Assembly (NCBI GenBank): GCA_902587295.1
Contig: CACIKS010000002.1
Coordinates: 34,134-98,133 of the forward strand
Reading direction: 5' to 3'
From: an uncultured Pelagibacteraceae bacterium
Lineage (GTDB): Bacteria; Pseudomonadota; Alphaproteobacteria; Pelagibacterales; Pelagibacteraceae
DNA: 64,000 nt
The notes beneath the pieces were generated by a model. It was not told the origin of the DNA. It was given only the letters and a program-made list of their open reading frames with translations, and made no database searches. Every line of letters starts with the position of its first letter. Position 1 is the first letter of the stretch. The position numbers and the translations under genes were made by a program. Of this stretch, positions 1-34,487 are shown piece after piece.

Positions 1-1278
1 ACTACTCAAACAATTAAAACTCAATCAAATCCCTTGCCATTTCAATTTCCTCCAGGCTCTCCTTTCGAGGATATGTTTAAAGAATTTCAAAGACCTACTG
101 AAAGAAAAGCCACTTCATTAGGTTCAGGATTTATAATTAAAAAGAATGGTACAGTAGTTACGAATAACCACGTTATCGAAAATGCTGATGACATTATTGT
201 GAGAGTAGATAATAAAGAATACGAAGCCGAAGTTGTAGGATCAGATCCATATGCAGATGTTGCGGTTTTAAAAATTCAATCTGATGAAGATTTTAAACCT
301 GTTCTATTTGGTAACTCAGACAAAGCCAGAATAGGAGACTGGGTAGTAGCGATTGGAAATCCTTTTGGGTTAGGTGGAACAGTAACATCAGGGATAATCT
401 CTGCAAGGAATCGAGACATAAATTTAACCAGGTACGATGATTTTATTCAGACCGATGCATCTATCAACCAAGGAAATTCTGGTGGGCCTTTATTTAATTT
501 AGAAGGTAAGGTAATTGGAATAAACACAGCAATCATTGCTCCTGGACAAGCTGGATCAATTGGAATTGGTTTTGCTATTCCTGCAAACGCTGCATCAAAT
601 ATTATTGATCAATTGATAAAATATGGAGAAACAAAAAGAGGTTGGTTAGGAGTTAGAATTCAACAAGTAACAAAAGAAATTGCTGAAGTTCAAAATTTAG
701 ATAAACCGAGGGGCGCTCTTATCGCAGGTGTATCCGAGGGAAGTCCTGCCGAAAAAGCTGGAATTAAACCAGGAGATATTATTTTAGAATTTGACGGACA
801 AAAAATACAAACTATGAGAAATCTTCCAAGAATAGTTGCAAACACCAAAGTGGGAAAAAATGTTGTTGTTAAAGTATGGAGAGAAAAGAAATCTTTTACA
901 AAAAGATTAACTCTCGGTAGATTAGAGTCTTCTAAAGAATTTATTCAGGAAAATAAGAAAAAAGAAAAAGTAAAAGAGACAGAAATTGAAAACTTAAAAA
1001 TTTCAGTTAGAGATTTAACCACAGAAGATACTGAGGCTAGAAAGTTAGATAAAAATTTAAGAGGAGTTGTGGTGACCGAAATTTTATCTAAAAGTCCACT
1101 TGCAGCACTACTAAGTTTAGGAGACATAATCGTTGAGGTTCAGAATAAAACAATACAAGACACTAAAAGTTTAGAAAAAGTTTCTCAAGAAATTTTTAAA
1201 AATGGTGACAAAACTTTATTAATAAGATTTATTAATAAACGAAATCAACCAAGTTATGGTACTGTTAAAATAAAATAA
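1..1278 (+). CDS. degP: DegP/HtrA-family periplasmic serine protease, 5' end cut by window
   Basis: This is an S1C protease and chaperone for periplasmic quality control. The reading frame is open back to base 1, so the TTG start of the ORF track at base 34 is only a window-edge artefact; the signal peptide and true start lie upstream. The trypsin fold shows the catalytic His in TNNHVIENAD, Asp in YADVAVLKI and Ser in GNSGGPL. Two PDZ domains follow, the first around GALIAGVSEGSPAEKAGIKPGD and a weaker one near the C terminus (LRGVVVTEILSKSPLAAL). miaA starts 2 bases after the stop. Only the N terminus is missing. Whether it is DegP or DegQ cannot be told from this fragment. Confidence 0.93.
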   Translation, partial: TTQTIKTQSNPLPFQFPPGSPFEDMFKEFQRPTERKATSLGSGFIIKKNGTVVTNNHVIENADDIIVRVDNKEYEAEVVGSDPYADVAVLKIQSDEDFKPVLFGNSDKARIGDWVVAIGNPFGLGGTVTSGIISARNRDINLTRYDDFIQTDASINQGNSGGPLFNLEGKVIGINTAIIAPGQAGSIGIGFAIPANAASNIIDQLIKYGETKRGWLGVRIQQVTKEIAEVQNLDKPRGALIAGVSEGSPAEKAGIKPGDIILEFDGQKIQTMRNLPRIVANTKVGKNVVVKVWREKKSFTKRLTLGRLESSKEFIQENKKKEKVKETEIENLKISVRDLTTEDTEARKLDKNLRGVVVTEILSKSPLAALLSLGDIIVEVQNKTIQDTKSLEKVSQEIFKNGDKTLLIRFINKRNQPSYGTVKIK

Positions 1279-25748: not shown

Positions 25749-26342
25749 TTATTTATAATAGTTTTCTAAAAATTCTGAATATTTTGCTCCATAGAAAGTT
25801 ACTGTTAATTTATCTACATATTTAAATTCCTTACTGTTATCATAGCAGATAATTTCTATCTCAGCCCCACTGCTCGTTGGCTTTAAAAAAAACGAGACCT
25901 TTGAGAATTTACTTTTACCAGTTTTATCACCGGGATGGAGACCTTCAGATGTCCGTTTTTCATCAAAATTGAATGACTTGTCTAGATCAAAGGCAATTTC
26001 ACTCATTTTCTTTTTACATGCATTGAAGTTATCTGGGAAATTTATCATTCCATCAATACCAATAATAACAAATCTTGAATCATTTTTTTCAAAATGAATT
26101 TGTACACTGTCATAATTTTTAAAATAAGGTTTTTTGAAAAGCACAATATGATTAACTTCATTTTGATTTTTGTATAATTCTCTTTCAAAGTGATAATTGT
26201 TTTTAATCTCCTTTTTACTATAAAATTTCAACAAACTATCCCCGATGCTCATTCCTTCAATCTGAAAGTCTCTTATATCTTCTGCATTTGACGATGTTAC
26301 AAAACATAAGCTCAGAATGATGATGGCTAAAAGGTTTTTCAT
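25749..26342 (-). CDS. Small secreted protein, paralogue 1 of a six-gene family
   Basis: A predicted periplasmic or secreted protein of 197 residues with a signal peptide ending near SSNA. The mature N terminus has the family block EDIRDFQIEGMSIGDSLLKFY followed by K-K-E-I. Two cysteines are conserved in the family: one near residue 110 (NACKKK) and one near 165 (IICYDN), so a disulfide is likely. The segment between them contains DKTGKSKF, also shared. The end F-x-E-F-L-x-x-x-Y is typical. I do not recognise a characterised family. It lies inside the att-bounded island with hsdMSR. Confidence 0.75.
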   Translation of the reverse strand: MKNLLAIIILSLCFVTSSNAEDIRDFQIEGMSIGDSLLKFYSKKEIKNNYHFERELYKNQNEVNHIVLFKKPYFKNYDSVQIHFEKNDSRFVIIGIDGMINFPDNFNACKKKMSEIAFDLDKSFNFDEKRTSEGLHPGDKTGKSKFSKVSFFLKPTSSGAEIEIICYDNSKEFKYVDKLTVTFYGAKYSEFLENYYK

Positions 26343-26343
26343 A

Positions 26344-26943
26344 CTAATAAGCTTTGTTAGTCATCCATTTGTCAAACTCATTTGATACAATAGAAATTCT
26401 TAAATTATCCATGATATTATGTTTCTTTTTTGCAGTTTTTCCCCAAGTAACACACTGCAACCAAACCTGTCCATCATTCAAAATAAAATAAGTTTCATGT
26501 CTTATAGCTTCCGGATCATAGTCTTCTTGACCAACAATATCCCTACTATATTTTTTTGCGTTCTTAAATAATTTGTCAATTTCAATCTCAATAGAATTTT
26601 TTTTCTCTTTGCATAATTTTTCTGACTCAGGATAATATATAGATGATTTACCGAATATCAGTGCTCCACTAAAACCATGTATCTGATAATTGTTATCATT
26701 ATTTTTTAAATGGAACTGCATAACAGGATATTCTTTAAATTTTTCACTCCAAATATCTAAAGTATAAAATTCATTATCTTTATAAGTATATTTACGTGAA
26801 GAAAGAATAGTATTTTTATCAACAAATTTTAATAAACTATCCCCAACACTTATTCCTTCAATCTGAAAGTCTCGGATATCATTCGCCTGGGATGGGGTTA
26901 TTAAAAACAAACCCAGAACCAAGATGGCTAAAAGTTTTTTCAT
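26344..26943 (-). CDS. Small secreted protein, paralogue 2
   Basis: Same family: signal peptide MKKLLAILVLGLFLITPSQA, then NDIRDFQIEGISVGDSLLKFV. The two family cysteines appear in KLCKEK and LQCVTW. The ORF track starts 36 bases upstream at 26979, but that extension (MSPPLSPDKMSL) precedes a complete signal peptide and lies in a short direct-repeat tract, so I chose ATG 26943. One base separates its stop from the start of paralogue 1. Function unknown. Confidence 0.73.
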   Translation of the reverse strand: MKKLLAILVLGLFLITPSQANDIRDFQIEGISVGDSLLKFVDKNTILSSRKYTYKDNEFYTLDIWSEKFKEYPVMQFHLKNNDNNYQIHGFSGALIFGKSSIYYPESEKLCKEKKNSIEIEIDKLFKNAKKYSRDIVGQEDYDPEAIRHETYFILNDGQVWLQCVTWGKTAKKKHNIMDNLRISIVSNEFDKWMTNKAY

Positions 26944-26944
26944 G

Positions 26945-26989
26945 AGACTCATCTTATCCGGACTCAATGGCGGACTCAATAAGGACTCA
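26945..26989. repeat. Cluster of short GGACTCA direct repeats
   Basis: The heptamer GGACTCA occurs at 26960, 26972 and 26983, with a variant AGACTCA at 26945. Spacing is 11-15 bases. The cluster sits directly upstream of the minus-strand paralogue 2 start, where it could be an operator or a decayed tandem repeat. The heptamer is short, so this is a weak feature. Confidence 0.35.
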
Positions 26990-27085
26990 CCCAGTAAAGA
27001 AATAGCCGTTTTTTATGCTCTAGAATTGTTGTATATCGTTAGAAGGTTAAGGGTACCTGGCAACAGAACGCCCCTTACAACTTAA

Positions 27086-27128
27086 GAGTTTTCTGAATTA
27101 AACAAACTCAACACTATTCAAATATAAA
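27086..27128 (+). pseudogene. Displaced copy of the etfA 3' end (att-like repeat, copy B)
   Basis: In frame, this stretch encodes [13 protein letters not shown]-stop, against [14 protein letters not shown]-stop at the true end of etfA. The upstream frame is closed (ACT TAA GAG), so it is a fragment and not a gene. It lies between paralogues 2 and 3 and marks the far edge of the hsdMSR insertion. Confidence 0.75.
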
Positions 27129-27176
27129 AGTCATTGCACTTTGTAAATAAAATGGCTACTTTAAATAGGGGATATA

Positions 27177-27425
27177 ATGGAATTTATTGCGCTAATATTT
27201 TATGCTGCAGCAGTTATAGACTTTGTTACGTCTTGGTTAGGTTATAATTTGACTTACTTTTTAGGAGAAGCTTCTCGTTTTTCTCCAATTATTTTAGGTG
27301 GTATAGGTTTTGTTATTCAAAAATTAGGTGAGTCGGGTGGTGCAGGTTTAAGACAATCCGAGGAAGATAATTTGCCAGAACAGTATCGAACAAAATCAAG
27401 AAAAAAAACAAAGAAGAGTAAGTAA
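27177..27425 (+). CDS. Small membrane protein of unknown function
   Basis: An 82-residue protein whose first half is hydrophobic (FIALIFYAAAVIDFVTSWLG, then FSPIILGGIGFVIQKLG), giving two probable membrane helices. The charged tail ends in KSRKKTKKSKK-like lysines, probably cytoplasmic. It follows the etfA 3' copy on the same strand, 50 bases away, with GGGGAT as a plausible ribosome-binding site. It may have been the original gene after etfA before the insertion. No family recognised. Confidence 0.6.
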   Translation: MEFIALIFYAAAVIDFVTSWLGYNLTYFLGEASRFSPIILGGIGFVIQKLGESGGAGLRQSEEDNLPEQYRTKSRKKTKKSK

Positions 27426-27492
27426 AAATAAAAAAAAGAGAAGTCTAAATTTATCTCATAGCTGCCCATGAGAAAATGTTATTGCAATGGGT

Positions 27493-28077
27493 TTATTTGT
27501 AGTGTTCGTTTAACAGAAAGTCTGAAAATTCTTTGGTTAAGATCGCTATTGTTAAACTATTATTTTCCCAATTTTTTTGTTTTGAAAATTCTTCTGTCAT
27601 ATCATAGCAAGCAACTTCTGCGAAGCCACCGCTTTTTAACCAAAAATACACATTATGAATTTTACTTTTTCCTGTCGGATCTGCTGCATAAGATCGTTCT
27701 TTAGCATCTACTTTTTGGGAATTTATAAATATTTCTGATAATCCTTTAATTGCTTTTTCATATTCTATTTTACAATCTTTTATATTTTTAAAAATTTTTA
27801 ATCCTCTTATTCCATAAATTTTATATTTTTTGTCCTTTGGTTTGTAAATGAAATCCATTGTATCATAAGAATCGGAATTAACAGGTATTGTTATACTTAG
27901 AAATTTTTTATCTTTATAAAAATCTTTAACACCGTTATTTATTTCCTCCTTACTAAAATGATCCAGCGCACTATCCCCAACACTTATTCCTTCAATCTGA
28001 AAGTCTCTTATATCATCTGCCTTTGACGAAGTTATGAAGTATAAGCTCAGAATGATGATAACTAAAAGTTTTTTCAT
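27493..28077 (-). CDS. Small secreted protein, paralogue 3
   Basis: Signal peptide MKKLLVIIILSLYFITSSKA followed by DDIRDFQIEGISVGDSALDHF. Family cysteines are in KDCKIEY and VACYDM, with the DPTGKSKI segment between them. The ORF track start at 28122 adds 15 residues that run back into the upstream gene; ATG 28077, one base after that gene's stop, is the likely start. Its nearest relative in the array by eye is paralogue 1 (shared SSxA and ILSL in the signal peptide). Function unknown. Confidence 0.73.
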   Translation of the reverse strand: MKKLLVIIILSLYFITSSKADDIRDFQIEGISVGDSALDHFSKEEINNGVKDFYKDKKFLSITIPVNSDSYDTMDFIYKPKDKKYKIYGIRGLKIFKNIKDCKIEYEKAIKGLSEIFINSQKVDAKERSYAADPTGKSKIHNVYFWLKSGGFAEVACYDMTEEFSKQKNWENNSLTIAILTKEFSDFLLNEHYK

Positions 28078-28078
28078 T

Positions 28079-28651
28079 TTAATTGGCTGTTTGTAACCAT
28101 TCATCAAACTCTGGACTATCAATCGATACTAAAATGTATTTATCTTTTGAAAAATCATCGTTCCAGTCGTAGCATACTAAGTCAATTGTACCTGTTCTGA
28201 AATAATAGTTTACTTGTTTAACCCAACTTCTTTTAGTTTTATCAGCCTCGTGCAAACGTTTCTTGCCTTCACGTCTATTTGCATTTGTAAATATTTTTTT
28301 TAAATCTTTATCAATTTTCTTTTGTTTTGTGAGACATTGGGCCATATTATCAAAAAATAATCCTCCACTAATTGCATAAATCATGTATTTTTTATCATTT
28401 TTCATAAAGACAACTTGGACGTCTTTATAAGTTTCGAAAGAATTTAATACTAACTGCGCATCATAAAATTTTCCGTCTGAATTTGGATAACTATTTTTTC
28501 TAATACTTTTTTTTATTTTCTCTTCACTAAAATAGTTTAATGCACTTTCATAGAGGCTCATTCCTTCAATCTGAAAATCAGTGATATCATCCCCTTGTGA
28601 TGGCGTTATTAAGCATAAGCTTAAAACTATAATGGCTAAAAGTTTTTTCAT
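28079..28651 (-). CDS. Small secreted protein, paralogue 4
   Basis: A 190-residue family member with signal peptide MKKLLAIIVLSLCLITPSQG and the block DDITDFQIEGMSLYESALNYF. This is the most altered copy of the motif: G-D-S becomes Y-E-S. Cysteines are in AQCLTK and LVCYDW. It overlaps paralogue 5 by 4 bases (ATGA) and is followed by paralogue 3 after one base, so the array is one transcription unit. Function unknown. Confidence 0.72.
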   Translation of the reverse strand: MKKLLAIIVLSLCLITPSQGDDITDFQIEGMSLYESALNYFSEEKIKKSIRKNSYPNSDGKFYDAQLVLNSFETYKDVQVVFMKNDKKYMIYAISGGLFFDNMAQCLTKQKKIDKDLKKIFTNANRREGKKRLHEADKTKRSWVKQVNYYFRTGTIDLVCYDWNDDFSKDKYILVSIDSPEFDEWLQTAN

Positions 28652-29235
28652 TCAAAGGGTTTGCCAGTTAGAAACTTGGTAAACTTATCGGAGGTTAAAG
28701 CGATAGTTAGGTTATCACCCCACCCTTTGCTTTTAGTAATTTTGTCTGACCAATCAACACAATAAAGGTCAACAGATCCACGATCTAAAAAAAAAACATA
28801 TCCATAAGTAAAACTTTCACCAGATTTATCGGCACCGTGTGGAGCGTCATGCTTAGTATATTTAATGTTTATTATATTATCTTGCAAAGTATTTAAAATT
28901 TTTCTCATTTGTATTTTGCAATCCTCTGTGCTTCTTTTAGTAAAATTAATTTTTCCACTAACCCCATGAATTTCATATTTTTTGTCATTAGGCTTGAAGC
29001 TTACTTGCACACGGTCATATTCATTTGGAATAATTGGCAAAGTAATGCTCATAAACTTATTGTCTCTATATTTGTATGCAGTTTTTTTTTGTTTTTCAAT
29101 CTCACTTTCGCTTAGGTAATCTAATACACTTTGCCCAAGACTTACTCCTTCAATTTCAAAGTCTCTAATATCATCCGCCTTCAAGTGGTTTGTTAAAAGT
29201 AAACTAAAAAATAATATTGTTAAAAACTGTTTCAT
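28648..29235 (-). CDS. Small secreted protein, paralogue 5
   Basis: A 195-residue member with signal peptide MKQFLTILFFSLLLTNHLKA and family block DDIRDFEIEGVSLGQSVLDYL. Cysteines lie in EDCKIQM and LYCVDW, with GADKSGES between them. The DNA of its first codons is nearly identical to a truncated fragment at 34486-34515 next to the Sel1 gene. It overlaps paralogues 4 and 6 by 4 bases each. Function unknown. Confidence 0.72.
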   Translation of the reverse strand: MKQFLTILFFSLLLTNHLKADDIRDFEIEGVSLGQSVLDYLSESEIEKQKKTAYKYRDNKFMSITLPIIPNEYDRVQVSFKPNDKKYEIHGVSGKINFTKRSTEDCKIQMRKILNTLQDNIINIKYTKHDAPHGADKSGESFTYGYVFFLDRGSVDLYCVDWSDKITKSKGWGDNLTIALTSDKFTKFLTGKPFE

Positions 29236-29831
29236 CTCTGCATGAATTTTATATAATCTTCAGAGGCAATACTAACGGCACCTGTATCATTAAAGCCGGT
29301 TTTTTTATCATATTGTGTGCACCACACTCTTACCATGCCCTTTTGAGAAGGAAAAGCATACCTGCTTACATGAGCCTTAGAGTTTCCCATATCTTTGTCT
29401 TGGTAATCAGCAACATAATCAATAAAATTTGCACCATTTAGAATTGTAGATATCTCTTTTACTACCTCATCTTTAAATTTTATACATTCTTGAAATCTAT
29501 TTTCGAATTGTTTTACACCTTTAATAGAATGAATAATAAATTTTTTATCATCGACCTTTACATGAAATCCTAATTTTGAATATAATTCAGAATTTGTATT
29601 TGTGGCAAGAACATTAAAAACTCCTTTATCATAAGTAGTAATTGGAAAATTTGAAATTTCAGACTTTGTATAAAAATCTAATAAACTATCCCCAATACTT
29701 ATACCTTCAATCTCTAAGTTTTTGATATCATCAGATTTGGCCCAAGTTTGAAAGCTTAAGGTCAAAAGATGCAAAAATAAATATTTTATAATTATAAATT
29801 TTTTCACCTCAAAATAGTAAACAAATATCAA
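29232..29831 (-). CDS. Small secreted protein, paralogue 6 (first gene of the array)
   Basis: The most divergent member, with DDIKNLEIEGISIGDSLLDFY. Cysteines are in QECIKF and VWCTQY, and the segment DMGNSKAHVSRY replaces DKTGKS. The start is uncertain: ATG 29831 gives an unusual MIFVYYFEV prefix, while a GTG at 29807 would give VKKFIIIKYLF, a cleaner signal peptide. A plausible minus-strand promoter (TTGAAA, 17 bases, TAAATT) overlaps the ATG, which favours the later start. It diverges from the caspase-like gene. Confidence 0.68.
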   Translation of the reverse strand: MIFVYYFEVKKFIIIKYLFLHLLTLSFQTWAKSDDIKNLEIEGISIGDSLLDFYTKSEISNFPITTYDKGVFNVLATNTNSELYSKLGFHVKVDDKKFIIHSIKGVKQFENRFQECIKFKDEVVKEISTILNGANFIDYVADYQDKDMGNSKAHVSRYAFPSQKGMVRVWCTQYDKKTGFNDTGAVSIASEDYIKFMQR

Positions 29832-29888: not shown

Positions 29889-31790
29889 ATGAAGAGATTC
29901 TTAGCAACCCTTTTGTTATTTGGAATATTGTTGAGCAATCAATATGCGTGGTCATCATGGATTACCAAAAAATCAGATACATCTGAAAAAGTGGAAAGCA
30001 TAGAAAAAGAATACGCAGATGGTTTTATATCTAAATCAGAATGTAATAAACAAAAATCAAAAGTTCTTAAATTAAAAAAAATATCAGAAACAATATGTGA
30101 CAACGTTAAAGTAAAAGTTGCACAATCATCATGGATAAAAAAAAAATCGAAAGAAGAAATTAAAAAAGAAAAATCAAATTACATACAAAAAAAAGAAAAA
30201 GAGACAAAAAAGGAATTTGTAAAAAAAAAAAAGAATTTATCAAAATCTATTAAAAAATGGATTTCCAAGAAAAAAACTAAAGATAAACGGCATTTTAATT
30301 CTGTAGCGCAACTACCTAAATCTGATTACTATTTTACTGCTGTTGACGGAAGTGGAAACACATTTATTGGTTATTTAAATGGGAATGAAAATGAAGACAG
30401 CATAAGTGTAAGCGGCCAAAGTATGCTCAAAATTTCAGATGGAAAAGCTTTTCAAAATAATAAAAAAACACAGTGTGATGTTCGATCAGAAATTTTAAAA
30501 GCGGATAAATTAATATTTAATGGTGTAGTAATTATAAAGTGTCCAACAAAAGAATTTATTGGTAGTTGGACCCAAACAGGTTCAGAAGGTTTTGGTATTG
30601 CTACCTCTGAGAAAACTAGACTTGAATTCAATTTTTCACAAAGTAAAAAAATAATAAATGCAAAACATACTGAAAATAAAACTAAGACAAAAATAGTTAA
30701 AAAAGACATTCAAAGTGAAAAAATCAAAGATAGTATTTGTCCAGAGATAAAATTAGTAGATAATAATCAGGTCTTTAATAGTTCAGATTGTAAGACTAAA
30801 GTTGCGAAAATTCAGGTAACAGATGGAAATTTTTCTTTGATTGGTTTTGCTACAGACAACGAAGAAGTCCAACGCTTTTCAGTTGATGGTAGACCAATTA
30901 AGCTTAAGTCTGATGGAAGTTTTAAATACAATGGAAAAACAAATTCATCGAAAGATGTTTATCTTGTTGCTACAGATAAATTTGGAAAAATAACTGAATT
31001 GAAAGTAATTATAGAAGTTTTATCACAAAAAGAAAAATTCATTAATAAACAAAAATATTACGCTTTATTAATTGGCAATAGCAAATATCAAAAATGGGAT
31101 AATTTAACGTCACCCGTTAATGACATTGATAAAATTGCAAACACACTAGAAAAAAAATATAAATTTCAAAAAGTGAAAATTTTAAAAGATGCATCTAAAG
31201 ATGAAATTATAAATGCATTTTATGACATGCAGGAAATTGTTGGCAAAGACGGCAATTTATTAATTTATTACTCTGGTCACGGTATGACTATAACAAGACA
31301 AGGAAAAGAAAAACATTTTTGGATACCCGTTGATGGCACCAAAGAGTACAAAGGAGGTGGTAGAAGTTGGTTATCCACGTCTTTTGTAAAGGACCAAGCA
31401 GACACACTATTAGCTTCGAAAGTTTTAATAATGGTTGATAGCTGTTTTTCTGGAACCTTTGTTTCAAAAGGTAGCCACAATTTAATTACTGAAGAGGAAA
31501 AAAGTATTAACAAACTGAATTTTTTAAAAATGAATGTTAATCGTATTGGACGAGAATATATTTCTTCAGGAGCAAATCAACAAGTTGAGGATACAAATGG
31601 AGGAAAATATTCTGCTTTTGCAAAAGTTTTCATTCAAAGTTTAGAAGATAATAATGGTCATTTATATTCTAAGATACTTCACGCAAAAATACATGAATAT
31701 TTAAATCCACTGACTGGCCAACAAGCGCAATATAGTTTTATTAAGAATGCAAACCATAGTAAAGGGGTTTTTGTTTTTTCAACAAGGTAG
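29889..31790 (+). CDS. Secreted caspase-like (peptidase C14) protein
   Basis: A 633-residue protein. A signal peptide (residues about 1-22) is followed by a lysine-rich region with SSWITKKS and SSWIKKKS, and a segment EKEYADGFISKSECNKQKSK that resembles a SHOCT-like short helix pair. A beta-rich region follows (about 135-260), then an Ig-like segment (about 295-375). The caspase domain starts near residue 390 (YYALLIGNSKY). The catalytic dyad is visible: His464 in YYSGHGM and Cys519 in MVDSCFSGTF. The protease would act in the periplasm or outside the cell. It is first in a three-gene unit with a trypsin-like protease 10 bases downstream. Target unknown. Confidence 0.85.
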   Translation: MKRFLATLLLFGILLSNQYAWSSWITKKSDTSEKVESIEKEYADGFISKSECNKQKSKVLKLKKISETICDNVKVKVAQSSWIKKKSKEEIKKEKSNYIQKKEKETKKEFVKKKKNLSKSIKKWISKKKTKDKRHFNSVAQLPKSDYYFTAVDGSGNTFIGYLNGNENEDSISVSGQSMLKISDGKAFQNNKKTQCDVRSEILKADKLIFNGVVIIKCPTKEFIGSWTQTGSEGFGIATSEKTRLEFNFSQSKKIINAKHTENKTKTKIVKKDIQSEKIKDSICPEIKLVDNNQVFNSSDCKTKVAKIQVTDGNFSLIGFATDNEEVQRFSVDGRPIKLKSDGSFKYNGKTNSSKDVYLVATDKFGKITELKVIIEVLSQKEKFINKQKYYALLIGNSKYQKWDNLTSPVNDIDKIANTLEKKYKFQKVKILKDASKDEIINAFYDMQEIVGKDGNLLIYYSGHGMTITRQGKEKHFWIPVDGTKEYKGGGRSWLSTSFVKDQADTLLASKVLIMVDSCFSGTFVSKGSHNLITEEEKSINKLNFLKMNVNRIGREYISSGANQQVEDTNGGKYSAFAKVFIQSLEDNNGHLYSKILHAKIHEYLNPLTGQQAQYSFIKNANHSKGVFVFSTR

Positions 31791-31800
31791 TTTTAGGATT

Positions 31801-33078
31801 ATGAAAGTTTTTATTTTATTTTTTACTATTGTTTTTTTTCTACAACATGTCCAAGCAGCAGATAATAAATTTAAAAGAATGGACAAAGCAAATAATATGA
31901 AAAAAGTAAACATTACTGTTGGTTTTACAAATATGATCAGTAATGAGAAAATTAAAACTCTTAATAATGAACTATCCGAGTACAAAAAAATTTCAAATCA
32001 TATTTCAGACAAAGAAAAACCAGCTACAAAGAGAAAAAAATATAAAGGCTTAAGTCAAAATATTTACAGAAATAATGCAGGCAGTGTGGTTTACATTGGC
32101 AACCCATCAGCAAAAGGAACGGGTTCTGGTTTTTTAATAAATAAAGAAGAGGGTTTGATTTTAACGAATTGGCATGTAATTGATGGAGCTAAAAAAGTAT
32201 ATGTCTGGTTCAAACCAGAAGATCCAAACAAAATGGACGAGGATTTATTAATCAATGAACCAAGAATAGATGGAACTGTAATTAAGAAAAATAAAAGCAA
32301 AGATCTAGGTTTAATTAAAGTTTTGCGTGTTCCTAAAAATGCTAAGGCTCTTGTAATAAACAAAAAAATATATGTCGATGTAGGATCAACGGCATATTCA
32401 ATTGGTCATCCGAGTGGTCTAACCTGGACTTTTAATTCTGGAATGGTGACTCAAGTCAGGAAAGGTTTTAAATGGAGATATAAAAACTCTAGACATTTAG
32501 CAAATGTAATTCAGCACGAAGTTCCCACAAACCCAGGTAATTCAGGTGGACCATTATTTAATGAAAGGGGACATGTAATTGGAGTTAATTCTTTTAAAGA
32601 TTCCAAAGGCGAGGTGATAAACTTTTCAGTATCAATAGATGAGGTTGATAAATTCTTAAAACAAAAAATAATTGAGAAAAAGAAAAGTAAATACATACAA
32701 AAAAAATCTAAGCAAACTTGGATACAAAAAAAATCAAAGAAAGAAAATAGTAAAACAGAACAAATAAAGAAAATATTTCCTAACGCAAAAATTCATGATG
32801 AGAATAAAAATGGAACAACTGACACATGGTTCGTAGATAAAAATAAAAATGGAAAAATAGATAGAGCATTCATTGATGATAACGAAGATGGAATTATAGA
32901 AGCGATATTAGTTGATAAAGATGAAAACGGAAAATGGGATTTTCTATTCGTTGATAAAGATCTTGATGGAAATCCAGATGAAGCATTTATTGATGAAGAC
33001 CAAGACGGTAATCCCGATGTAGTTGCATACGATTACAATCAAGATGGTGAATGGGATAAATTTGAAAATGTTGGTTAA
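31801..33078 (+). CDS. Secreted trypsin-like (S1C) protease with C-terminal calcium-type repeats
   Basis: ATG 31801 gives a signal peptide (MKVFILFFTIVFFLQHVQA); the track start at 31747 runs into the caspase gene. The triad is complete: His125 (NWHVIDGA), Asp168 (SKDLGLIKV) and Ser248 (NPGNSGGPL). No PDZ domain follows. Instead there is a linker with KYIQKKSKQTWIQKKSK, similar to the caspase-gene linker, and from about residue 333 seven tandem 13-residue units of the type D-x-N/D-x-D/N-G-x-x-D (DKNKNGKID, DKDLDGNPD, DYNQDGEWD). These look like thrombospondin-3/EF-hand-type calcium loops. 425 residues in all; substrate unknown. Confidence 0.87.
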   Translation: MKVFILFFTIVFFLQHVQAADNKFKRMDKANNMKKVNITVGFTNMISNEKIKTLNNELSEYKKISNHISDKEKPATKRKKYKGLSQNIYRNNAGSVVYIGNPSAKGTGSGFLINKEEGLILTNWHVIDGAKKVYVWFKPEDPNKMDEDLLINEPRIDGTVIKKNKSKDLGLIKVLRVPKNAKALVINKKIYVDVGSTAYSIGHPSGLTWTFNSGMVTQVRKGFKWRYKNSRHLANVIQHEVPTNPGNSGGPLFNERGHVIGVNSFKDSKGEVINFSVSIDEVDKFLKQKIIEKKKSKYIQKKSKQTWIQKKSKKENSKTEQIKKIFPNAKIHDENKNGTTDTWFVDKNKNGKIDRAFIDDNEDGIIEAILVDKDENGKWDFLFVDKDLDGNPDEAFIDEDQDGNPDVVAYDYNQDGEWDKFENVG

Positions 33079-33089
33079 TTTTTTTTTTT

Positions 33090-34487
33090 ATGCTTTTTAA
33101 ACGATCATTAATATATATAAAATTTTCTTTTATTATATTTTTTTTTTCAACTACATATCTTAATGCAGGAGTAGATAATTGTGATAGATTTGGTCAAGCT
33201 GTAGAGGATAAAAAAGATTTTAATTATCCAACAAAAACTATTAACGACCTTGGTATTTTCTTTCAAAAAAAATTTACTATTAACGGAGTAGAAAAAATTA
33301 TAAGAGATATAAATAATTATCCTATAATTTATTTTTCGTTATATGAAAAAGATAAACTAAAAAATGGTACTGTAATAAAATCAATTAATAAAAATAATTT
33401 ATCAAAAATTTCTGATGAAGAATTAATTCTTTTAATTAAAAAAATCAATTATGGCAGTATAGAATATTTTAAGACATCAAGTAATACCGACTTAGTTAAA
33501 ATTTATGGAAAAGATTACGGGGGTATTTTCTTTTTAGTCGATCAACTATTTATAAATACAATAGGGGAAGTTGATGCAAAAAAAGGTTTTTTCACAATGA
33601 ATTATGATTATAAGCTGATATATGATCGACCGGATTTAAAATCTGAGGGAGTTTTGTTAAAAAATGACGAATGTACAATTAATACAAAATCATATGAAAC
33701 AAAATTTAGCGATATTTACCGACCTGATAAAGAAATATTAATAAAACAATTTGATAGGGACCGGGATAAGATAGAAGAAACTTTTGGATTTTATAATGAG
33801 AACGGTAATACTTATTTATTTCAATCTATTAAAGGTACGTCGAAAATAAGAGCAAAATTTAATTTTTCAAAATTTCCATTTGATACTCAACCATTAAAAA
33901 TTCAAATTATTTCATCTTTAAAAATAAATGAAGGGAATGAGACAACACAGATTTTTCCAACATCATCATTATTTAAGAACATAAAAAATTTTAAAGAAAA
34001 CAATTTTCTTGAAGAATGGAAAGTAAAAGACTTTGAAATTTCAAATAATTTAATTAATTTAGATAATAATAAATATGACTCTTTAAAAATTTCAATAAAT
34101 GTAAAAAGGAATTCTAATTATTATATTTTTAAAATAATAATTCCTGTTTTGTTAATTTTAGCAGTTGCATGGAGCGTTTTATGGATTCCGCCTAAAGAAG
34201 AATGGGTCGAGTCAAGGTTAACAACGTCGATTGTAGCCCTGTTATCTTTGATAGCTTATAACTTTGTTTTTTTAGATGATATTCCAAAATTAGATATACT
34301 TACCAGTTTAGATTTATTTATACTCTTATCTTATTTATTCTGCGCAATACCGATTTTTACAACAATTTTTCTAAGTAGATTATTAGATAAAAGTCCGAAA
34401 AGAGCTTACACAAGAAATAAATCTATAAGAATTTATGGAGGAACAATTTATATTATTTTTAACGCCTTCATTTTTCTACCAATTTAA
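33090..34487 (+). CDS. Pentameric ligand-gated ion channel (Cys-loop receptor superfamily)
   Basis: A 465-residue subunit. A signal peptide ends near residue 26, an extra N-terminal domain spans about 27-145, and the ligand-binding beta-sandwich about 146-345. The superfamily's Pro-loop is clear as FPFDTQ at 262-267; the two flanking cysteines of animal receptors are absent, as in other bacterial channels. Four membrane helices follow: M1 347-367, M2 375-397 (ESRLTTSIVALL...AYNF, resembling ELIC's pore helix), M3 401-430, M4 447-465. A channel would sit in the inner membrane with its sensor in the periplasm. It starts 11 bases after the S1C protease stop. Ligand and ion selectivity are unknown. 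Confidence 0.87.
   Translation: MLFKRSLIYIKFSFIIFFFSTTYLNAGVDNCDRFGQAVEDKKDFNYPTKTINDLGIFFQKKFTINGVEKIIRDINNYPIIYFSLYEKDKLKNGTVIKSINKNNLSKISDEELILLIKKINYGSIEYFKTSSNTDLVKIYGKDYGGIFFLVDQLFINTIGEVDAKKGFFTMNYDYKLIYDRPDLKSEGVLLKNDECTINTKSYETKFSDIYRPDKEILIKQFDRDRDKIEETFGFYNENGNTYLFQSIKGTSKIRAKFNFSKFPFDTQPLKIQIISSLKINEGNETTQIFPTSSLFKNIKNFKENNFLEEWKVKDFEISNNLINLDNNKYDSLKISINVKRNSNYYIFKIIIPVLLILAVAWSVLWIPPKEEWVESRLTTSIVALLSLIAYNFVFLDDIPKLDILTSLDLFILLSYLFCAIPIFTTIFLSRLLDKSPKRAYTRNKSIRIYGGTIYIIFNAFIFLPI

Follow-up and report, generated by a model that had tools for sequence, protein, structure and literature searches.

A putative pentameric ligand-gated channel subunit with a PDZ domain, encoded in an operon with two proteases in an uncultured Pelagibacteraceae bacterium

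Bacterial pentameric ligand-gated channels (pLGICs) serve as standard models for nerve receptors, although their own physiological roles are largely unknown. What such a channel might respond to in a streamlined marine bacterium is the question raised by an open reading frame at 33090-34487 of the window, i.e., the whole stretch of 64,000 nucleotides from an uncultured Pelagibacteraceae bacterium that was analysed here. The first-pass annotation had read it as a pentameric ligand-gated channel in a streamlined marine genome, with about 120 residues placed in front of the canonical sensor domain. The genome is indeed small and AT-rich, with an assembly of 852 kb that is about 76% complete and has about 29-34% GC, and about 117 residues (27-143) were found to precede the first strand of the sensor domain. 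The identity of this additional segment and the genes that accompany the channel provide a possible answer.

The channel and its added N-terminal domain

The gene and its predicted parts are located as follows:

33090..34487, + strand: predicted pentameric ligand-gated channel subunit with N-terminal PDZ domain (465 aa, ATG start)
33090..33167, + strand: residues 1-26, signal-peptide-like as judged by eye (the model has a hydrophobic helix at 2-20, and the end is AxA-like)
33168..33518, + strand: predicted PDZ domain, residues 27-143 (profile of homologues, Pfam in a homologue, Foldseek of a domain-only model)
33243..33260, + strand: putative GLGF-like carboxylate-binding loop, residues 52-57 (NDLGIF), assigned by analogy with PDZ families
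33519..34112, + strand: canonical extracellular (periplasmic) beta-sandwich domain, residues 144-341 (model strands; Foldseek to GABA-A, DeCLIC and GLIC subunits)
33873..33890, + strand: Pro-loop FPFDTQ, residues 262-267 (FPFD invariant in 67 homologues)
34113..34184, + strand: M1 helix, residues 342-365 (model)
34197..34271, + strand: M2 pore helix, residues 370-394 (model and column counts)
34305..34391, + strand: M3 helix, residues 406-434 (model)
34395..34475, + strand: M4 helix, residues 436-462 (model)

Sequence searches of the PDB matched the protein to sTeLIC (1.4e-14), DeCLIC (1.6e-14), ELIC (about 3e-13) and GLIC (about 1e-12), and Pfam Neur_chan_memb was detected at 4.7e-6 with 27.5 bits, slightly below its cut-off of 28.1. 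An AlphaFold2 model built on 67 homologous sequences (mean pLDDT 88.3, pTM 0.79) displays a beta-sandwich, the strands of which span residues 141-340, and four transmembrane helices. Foldseek placed this model next to DeCLIC, GABA-A and GLIC subunits in the PDB at 1e-18 to 1e-19. The M1-M3 stretch, searched alone, was matched best by ELIC in the PDB (1.3e-10), and the earlier remark that M2 resembles ELIC was therefore right. Residues 1-26 are the least conserved part of the channel, while the M1 proline Pro352 is invariant in the homologue alignment. M2 of the window channel carries Glu374 at position -2', followed by Thr at 2', Val at 6', Leu at 9', Ala at 13' and Phe at 16'; the 67 homologues have Glu or Asp at -2' in 66 cases, Leu at 9' in all 67 and Phe at 16' in 66.

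Judged by these matches and by the predicted fold, the open reading frame encodes a genuine pentameric ligand-gated channel subunit, but its assembly into a pentamer and its opening by a ligand are only inferred. The Pro-loop singled out in the first-pass annotation is present as described, and neither of the two outcomes named there as refuting the identification was encountered: a fold lacking the beta-sandwich is not what the model predicts, and an M2 that does not line the pore is at odds with the conserved M2 pattern, as far as this can be judged from single-chain models without a pentamer. GLIC has an acidic -2' ring comparable to Glu374, and by this analogy the window channel would be selective for cations.

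The first-pass annotation had also proposed to compare residues 27-145 with known domains, and it is this comparison that identified the added segment, with residues 27-143 predicted to form a PDZ domain. With a profile from 51 homologous N-terminal domains, the best 60 matches listed in the PDB were all PDZ domains, headed by the PDZ pair of an Aquifex site-2 protease (1.1e-9) and followed by HtrA/DegP, HTRA1, syntenin, harmonin and others. A Pfam scan of the whole window channel returned no PDZ match, and the domain cut out alone scored 14.6 bits against PF00595, below the cut-off of 23.2 bits; thus, the identity of this copy rests on its homologues and on the fold. Homologues do reach significance: one passes the same cut-off with 26.7 bits, and a Pfam PDZ match at 2.7e-7 was obtained in a homologue. 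A model of the isolated N-terminal domain (pLDDT 87.4) retrieved PDZ-containing proteins in 50 of the 50 Foldseek matches listed (best E 3.6e-3, probability 1.00), including CtpA, CtpB, HtrA, DegS and isolated PDZ domains. When the full-length channel profile was applied to unrelated genomes, it also caught ordinary periplasmic PDZ proteases (RseP-, DegP- and CTP-like), exclusively via its N-terminal columns. Gly55 of the GLGF-like loop is present in 50 of the 51 homologues, and in the AlphaFold2 model the loop is followed by strands and then by an alpha-B-like helix at residues 109-118. Binding of a protein C-terminus in the groove is only a guess. A jelly-roll domain as in DeCLIC was rejected on the basis of the uniform Foldseek result, and the added domain is not of the PBP or Cache type either.

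The nearest relative with a channel gene is found on contig 7 of 'uncultured Pelagibacteraceae bacterium AG-414-B15', and the two channels are 77% identical. With dN 0.136 and dS 0.97 between them, the channel gene is under purifying selection, and the same applies to its PDZ part (dN 0.22, dS 0.72).

The protease operon and its recurrence

The most informative fact about this locus was absent from the first-pass annotation: the channel gene comes third in a compact same-strand operon, behind the genes of two proteases that are presumably exported.

29889..31790, + strand: caspase-like (Peptidase_C14) protease, 633 aa (Pfam PF00656, 3.7e-21 at residues 391-606; N-terminal signal-like sequence)
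31801..33078, + strand: trypsin-like serine protease, 425 aa (Pfam Trypsin_2, 2e-26; signal-like N-terminus)
32797..33057, + strand: seven repeats of the DxNxDG type (calcium-binding-like), located towards the C-terminus within the last third of the trypsin, residues 333-419 (pattern D.[DN].[DN]G..[DE])

Only 10 bp separate caspase and trypsin, and 11 bp trypsin and channel. The likely start of the trypsin is 31801 and not 31747, as relatives begin at the equivalent position. The catalytic His464 (SGHG) and Cys519 (DSCFSG) of the caspase-like protease are kept in 29/29 relatives aligned. In the trypsin, the catalytic residues are His125, Asp168 and Ser248; the His and Ser motifs are present in nearly all relatives that are complete there, while the pattern used for the Asp motif missed some. 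Its DxNxDG-type repeats recur with 4-7 copies in the other relatives, and a Pfam scan of the operon trypsin gave no PDZ match. Export of caspase, trypsin and channel is inferred from signal-like N-termini that were judged by eye. A second trypsin-type protease, HtrA-like and without the calcium-type repeats, is encoded at 1-1278 (+ strand) of the window.

Among 297 genomes of the family, a channel homologue of any type is found in 27, the window-type trypsin in 18 and the caspase in 15. The channel gene is thus accessory, and the earlier statement that it must pay for itself remains plausible, but it applies to a gene that most of these genomes lack. Fifteen of the 18 trypsin-bearing genomes also hold the channel, and the two genes are adjacent every time (Fisher 1.9e-15, 297 genomes). 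A genome-wide scan revealed 79 loci. In 76 of them the channel is of sufficient length to include the PDZ domain, and 73 of these 76 have a gene for a protease of the caspase, trypsin, CHAT or PrsW type within three ORFs. Comparing genes near the channel (within three genes) with those farther away (4-9 genes), the counts are 40 vs 0 for trypsin, 30 vs 1 for caspase and 38 vs 13 for PrsW. In contrast, a neighbouring family of secreted 195-aa proteins, which served as negative control, is not enriched near the channel (39 vs 71), and a special link between this family and the channel was rejected. As the loci are related rather than independent, and as the marker genes were picked from some of them, the p-values overstate the surprise.

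The channel tree partly answers the problem of non-independence, because the trypsin pairing is seen in clade A and again on four distinct branches within clade B, i.e., on at least five branches. Clade A (40 rows, full support) comprises the caspase-trypsin type and four PrsW-linked members. The usual neighbour in clade B is PrsW, whose identity was confirmed by Pfam; on the branches L107, L121, L123 and L132, a trypsin gene is added, together with CHAT or close to it. At four clade B loci a CHAT gene accompanies the trypsin, and both of the CHAT proteins scanned (2/2) carry a PDZ domain themselves.

Full-length PDZ channels are also present in a second family of the same order, and outside the order they were detected in 2 genomes of one other alphaproteobacterial family (L144, L145) among 385 genomes of the class. 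The PDZ motif of these two was recognised by eye and was missed by the local profile of the N-terminal domain, so that very diverged cases could escape. Channels on one contig labelled SAR86 and on two SAG contigs labelled Alphaproteobacteria (L126, L133, L134) look PDZ-like by eye. The PDZ profile matched none of the other channels at phylum level, which appear by eye to be PBP-type or bare.

Several further observations were made around the channel loci. Exported-looking proteins of ~1430 aa, with an N-terminal PDZ domain, a TPR-like region and a C-terminal CHAT protease domain, are encoded near trypsin and PDZ channel at L045:2016-6299 and L047:7958-12250. At L051 (G169:C17), a caspase-trypsin pair is present without a channel gene, indicating that the protease pair can exist alone. 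Tandem secreted paralogues of ~195 aa ('ADDIRDFQIEGMSIGDSLLDYF...') occupy 25749-29831 (minus strand) of the window and many flanks (e.g., L041, L054, L072); they are abundant around channel loci, and those scanned had no significant Pfam match. A gene for 150-160 aa ('MAKIRKSASIESGL...') adjoins most PDZ channels (~55 loci, e.g., L044:8311-8766, L036:8501-8977), and one copy matches Phage_CP76, a CII-like regulator. It is located on the opposite strand in clade A, and the window lacks it between trypsin and channel. Finally, an FAD gene that resembles amine oxidases and has a twin-arginine-like N-terminus adjoins a short channel (~400 aa, no PDZ) at ten loci (L104:11362-12705, L108:11527-12852, L113:7137-8480, L114:7038-8366, L120, L128, L129, L135, L139, L140), and in 8 of the ten the run includes another channel gene. 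The amine-oxidase identity was checked by Pfam (PF01593) only in L043, which is the same locus as L104.

Possible modes of action

The PDZ domain and the protease context suggest that the channel is controlled by protein tails or by protein cutting, and not by a small transmitter. As the best explanation, held with a confidence that stays just below an even balance, we propose a cation-selective inner-membrane channel that carries a periplasmic ring of five PDZ domains, forms one unit with the operon proteases and is gated by a protein C-terminus. The ring would sit on the periplasmic face of the channel, which would work together with the exported caspase-like and trypsin-like proteases. The PDZ groove may then bind a free C-terminus that is presented by the protease arm, and this end could belong to one of the partner proteases or could have been created by a cut. 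Such binding would shift the sensor domain and open or close the pore, and periplasmic proteolysis would be converted into a change of membrane potential or into cation entry.

The analysis establishes the ground for this proposal, namely the channel fold, the pore pattern, the PDZ identity, the operon, the recurrent protease linkage and the intact catalytic residues. Periplasmic location and export, the pentamer, cation selectivity and a linked function of channel and proteases are inferences. A C-terminal peptide as ligand and the direction of gating are guesses. The C-terminus of the trypsin was considered as PDZ ligand and is not diagnostic, with 19/40 sequences ending in [DE]-x-hydrophobic and 16/40 in Ser; similar tails are found on trypsins where the genome has no detected channel. 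The trypsin tail remains a lead. Two further observations count against the proposal: the usual partner in clade B is the intramembrane protease PrsW, so that no single partner is constant, and the genome of L051 has caspase and trypsin but no channel.

Similar parts could also be assembled differently. One alternative is a sensor of envelope stress comparable to DegS/RseP. Its PDZ ring would bind the exposed C-termini of misfolded periplasmic or outer-membrane proteins, the channel would signal this by depolarisation, and the neighbouring proteases would act in downstream quality control instead of making the ligand. The closest PDB profile matches listed, the Aquifex PDZ pair and the PDZ domains of DegP/HtrA, agree with this possibility, as do the Foldseek matches CtpA/CtpB, HtrA and DegS, which are all periplasmic sensors of protein ends, and the PrsW linkage in clade B would fit membrane stress proteolysis. 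Nevertheless, the neighbourhoods showed no connection with a regulator of the sigma-E type, and the patchy, accessory distribution (27/297 genomes) is unlike a core stress response. We consider this explanation unlikely. We would rank behind it, as improbable, a module for cell death or defence, in which activated caspase or CHAT together with trypsin cuts or releases the N-terminal domain and unlocks the channel, so that an uncontrolled flow of cations would bring the cell to a halt. Gasdermin systems work from inside the cytoplasm, whereas caspase, trypsin and channel all look exported here; moreover, neither a gasdermin nor a nucleotide-sensing partner is present, pLGICs are gated and not lytic pores, and no channel relatives were found in the viral contigs searched. 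The accessory distribution and the variable flanking genes of the channel loci would suit such a module, and the genes of bacterial gasdermins have neighbours of these protease types, C14, CHAT and trypsin (PMC9612521). PADLOC models of caspase and of RT-linked proteases also match the operon proteases, but these matches reflect shared protease domains only.

Still further down we place an ordinary chemoreceptor channel, in which amines, protons or calcium are bound at the canonical site and the role of the PDZ domain is limited to tethering or assembly; we regard this as quite improbable. ELIC is gated by amines, and the M1-M3 stretch is closest to ELIC. In clade B, the amine-oxidase family gene adjoins the short channel paralogue and in most cases is flanked by channel genes on both sides, which points to amines as the ligand for this short channel and to possible mixed pentamers. 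DeCLIC is inhibited by calcium (PMC9897478; PMC12664993). However, the repeated protease linkage would be left unexplained, and the genes identified next to the window copy include neither a transporter nor a solute-binding protein. A chance ORF, pseudogene or assembly artefact, in turn, is refuted and hardly conceivable, as the gene is intact in dozens of genomes, has a low dN/dS and lies in conserved synteny.

Returning to gating by protein tails, its widest formulation would be a protease-coupled channel system in which SAR11-group bacteria and a few others pair PDZ channels with caspase/CHAT, trypsin and PrsW, so that periplasmic proteolysis would either generate an electrical signal or cause cations to leak with lethal effect. 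In this full extent it is a possibility that we consider doubtful.

Relation to known systems and implications

ELIC, sTeLIC and GLIC share the sensor domain and the four-helix membrane domain with the window channel, which combines an ELIC-like M2 with a GLIC-like acidic -2' ring, but they lack an added N-terminal domain. DeCLIC from Desulfofustis, a top-ranked relative by fold and sequence, likewise couples a pLGIC core to a large added periplasmic domain, but there it consists of two calcium-binding jelly rolls (PMC12664993) instead of one PDZ domain. Sensors of the PBP-I or Cache/MCP-N type are also fused N-terminally to pLGIC cores and differ in the kind of domain (Tasneem et al. 2005, PMC549065); the same study describes PBP-II and Cache operon partners and mentions neither PDZ domains nor proteases. 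A pLGIC inventory names Pelagibacter but set terminal regions aside (PMC4795631). In general, added N-terminal domains are described as poorly understood, and that of DeCLIC as the only one partly characterised (PMC12664993). HtrA/DegS, RseP and CtpA operate with the same domain type in the same compartment, and the operon described here also includes a trypsin-like protease; however, in those proteins PDZ domain and protease share one chain, whereas here the PDZ domain belongs to the channel and the trypsin has none. Bacterial gasdermin loci resemble the operon in placing a membrane pore gene beside genes for caspase/CHAT and trypsin-like proteases (PMC9612521), but the pore gene of the window encodes an unrelated gated pLGIC, the components appear to be exported and a gasdermin is missing.

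Open-access literature on PDZ domains or PrsW with pLGICs and on SAR11 caspases yielded nothing relevant, which does not exclude a report elsewhere. Within this limit, the channel is a true member of the pLGIC family whose PDZ architecture and protease gene context were not found described. The SAR11 group ranks among the ocean's most abundant bacteria. For its channel, the PDZ domain and the protease context allow a concrete and testable guess at the natural stimulus, which would be protein ends and not transmitters. The operon would also be a second bacterial case, after the gasdermins, of a membrane channel that is genetically tied to caspase-family proteases.
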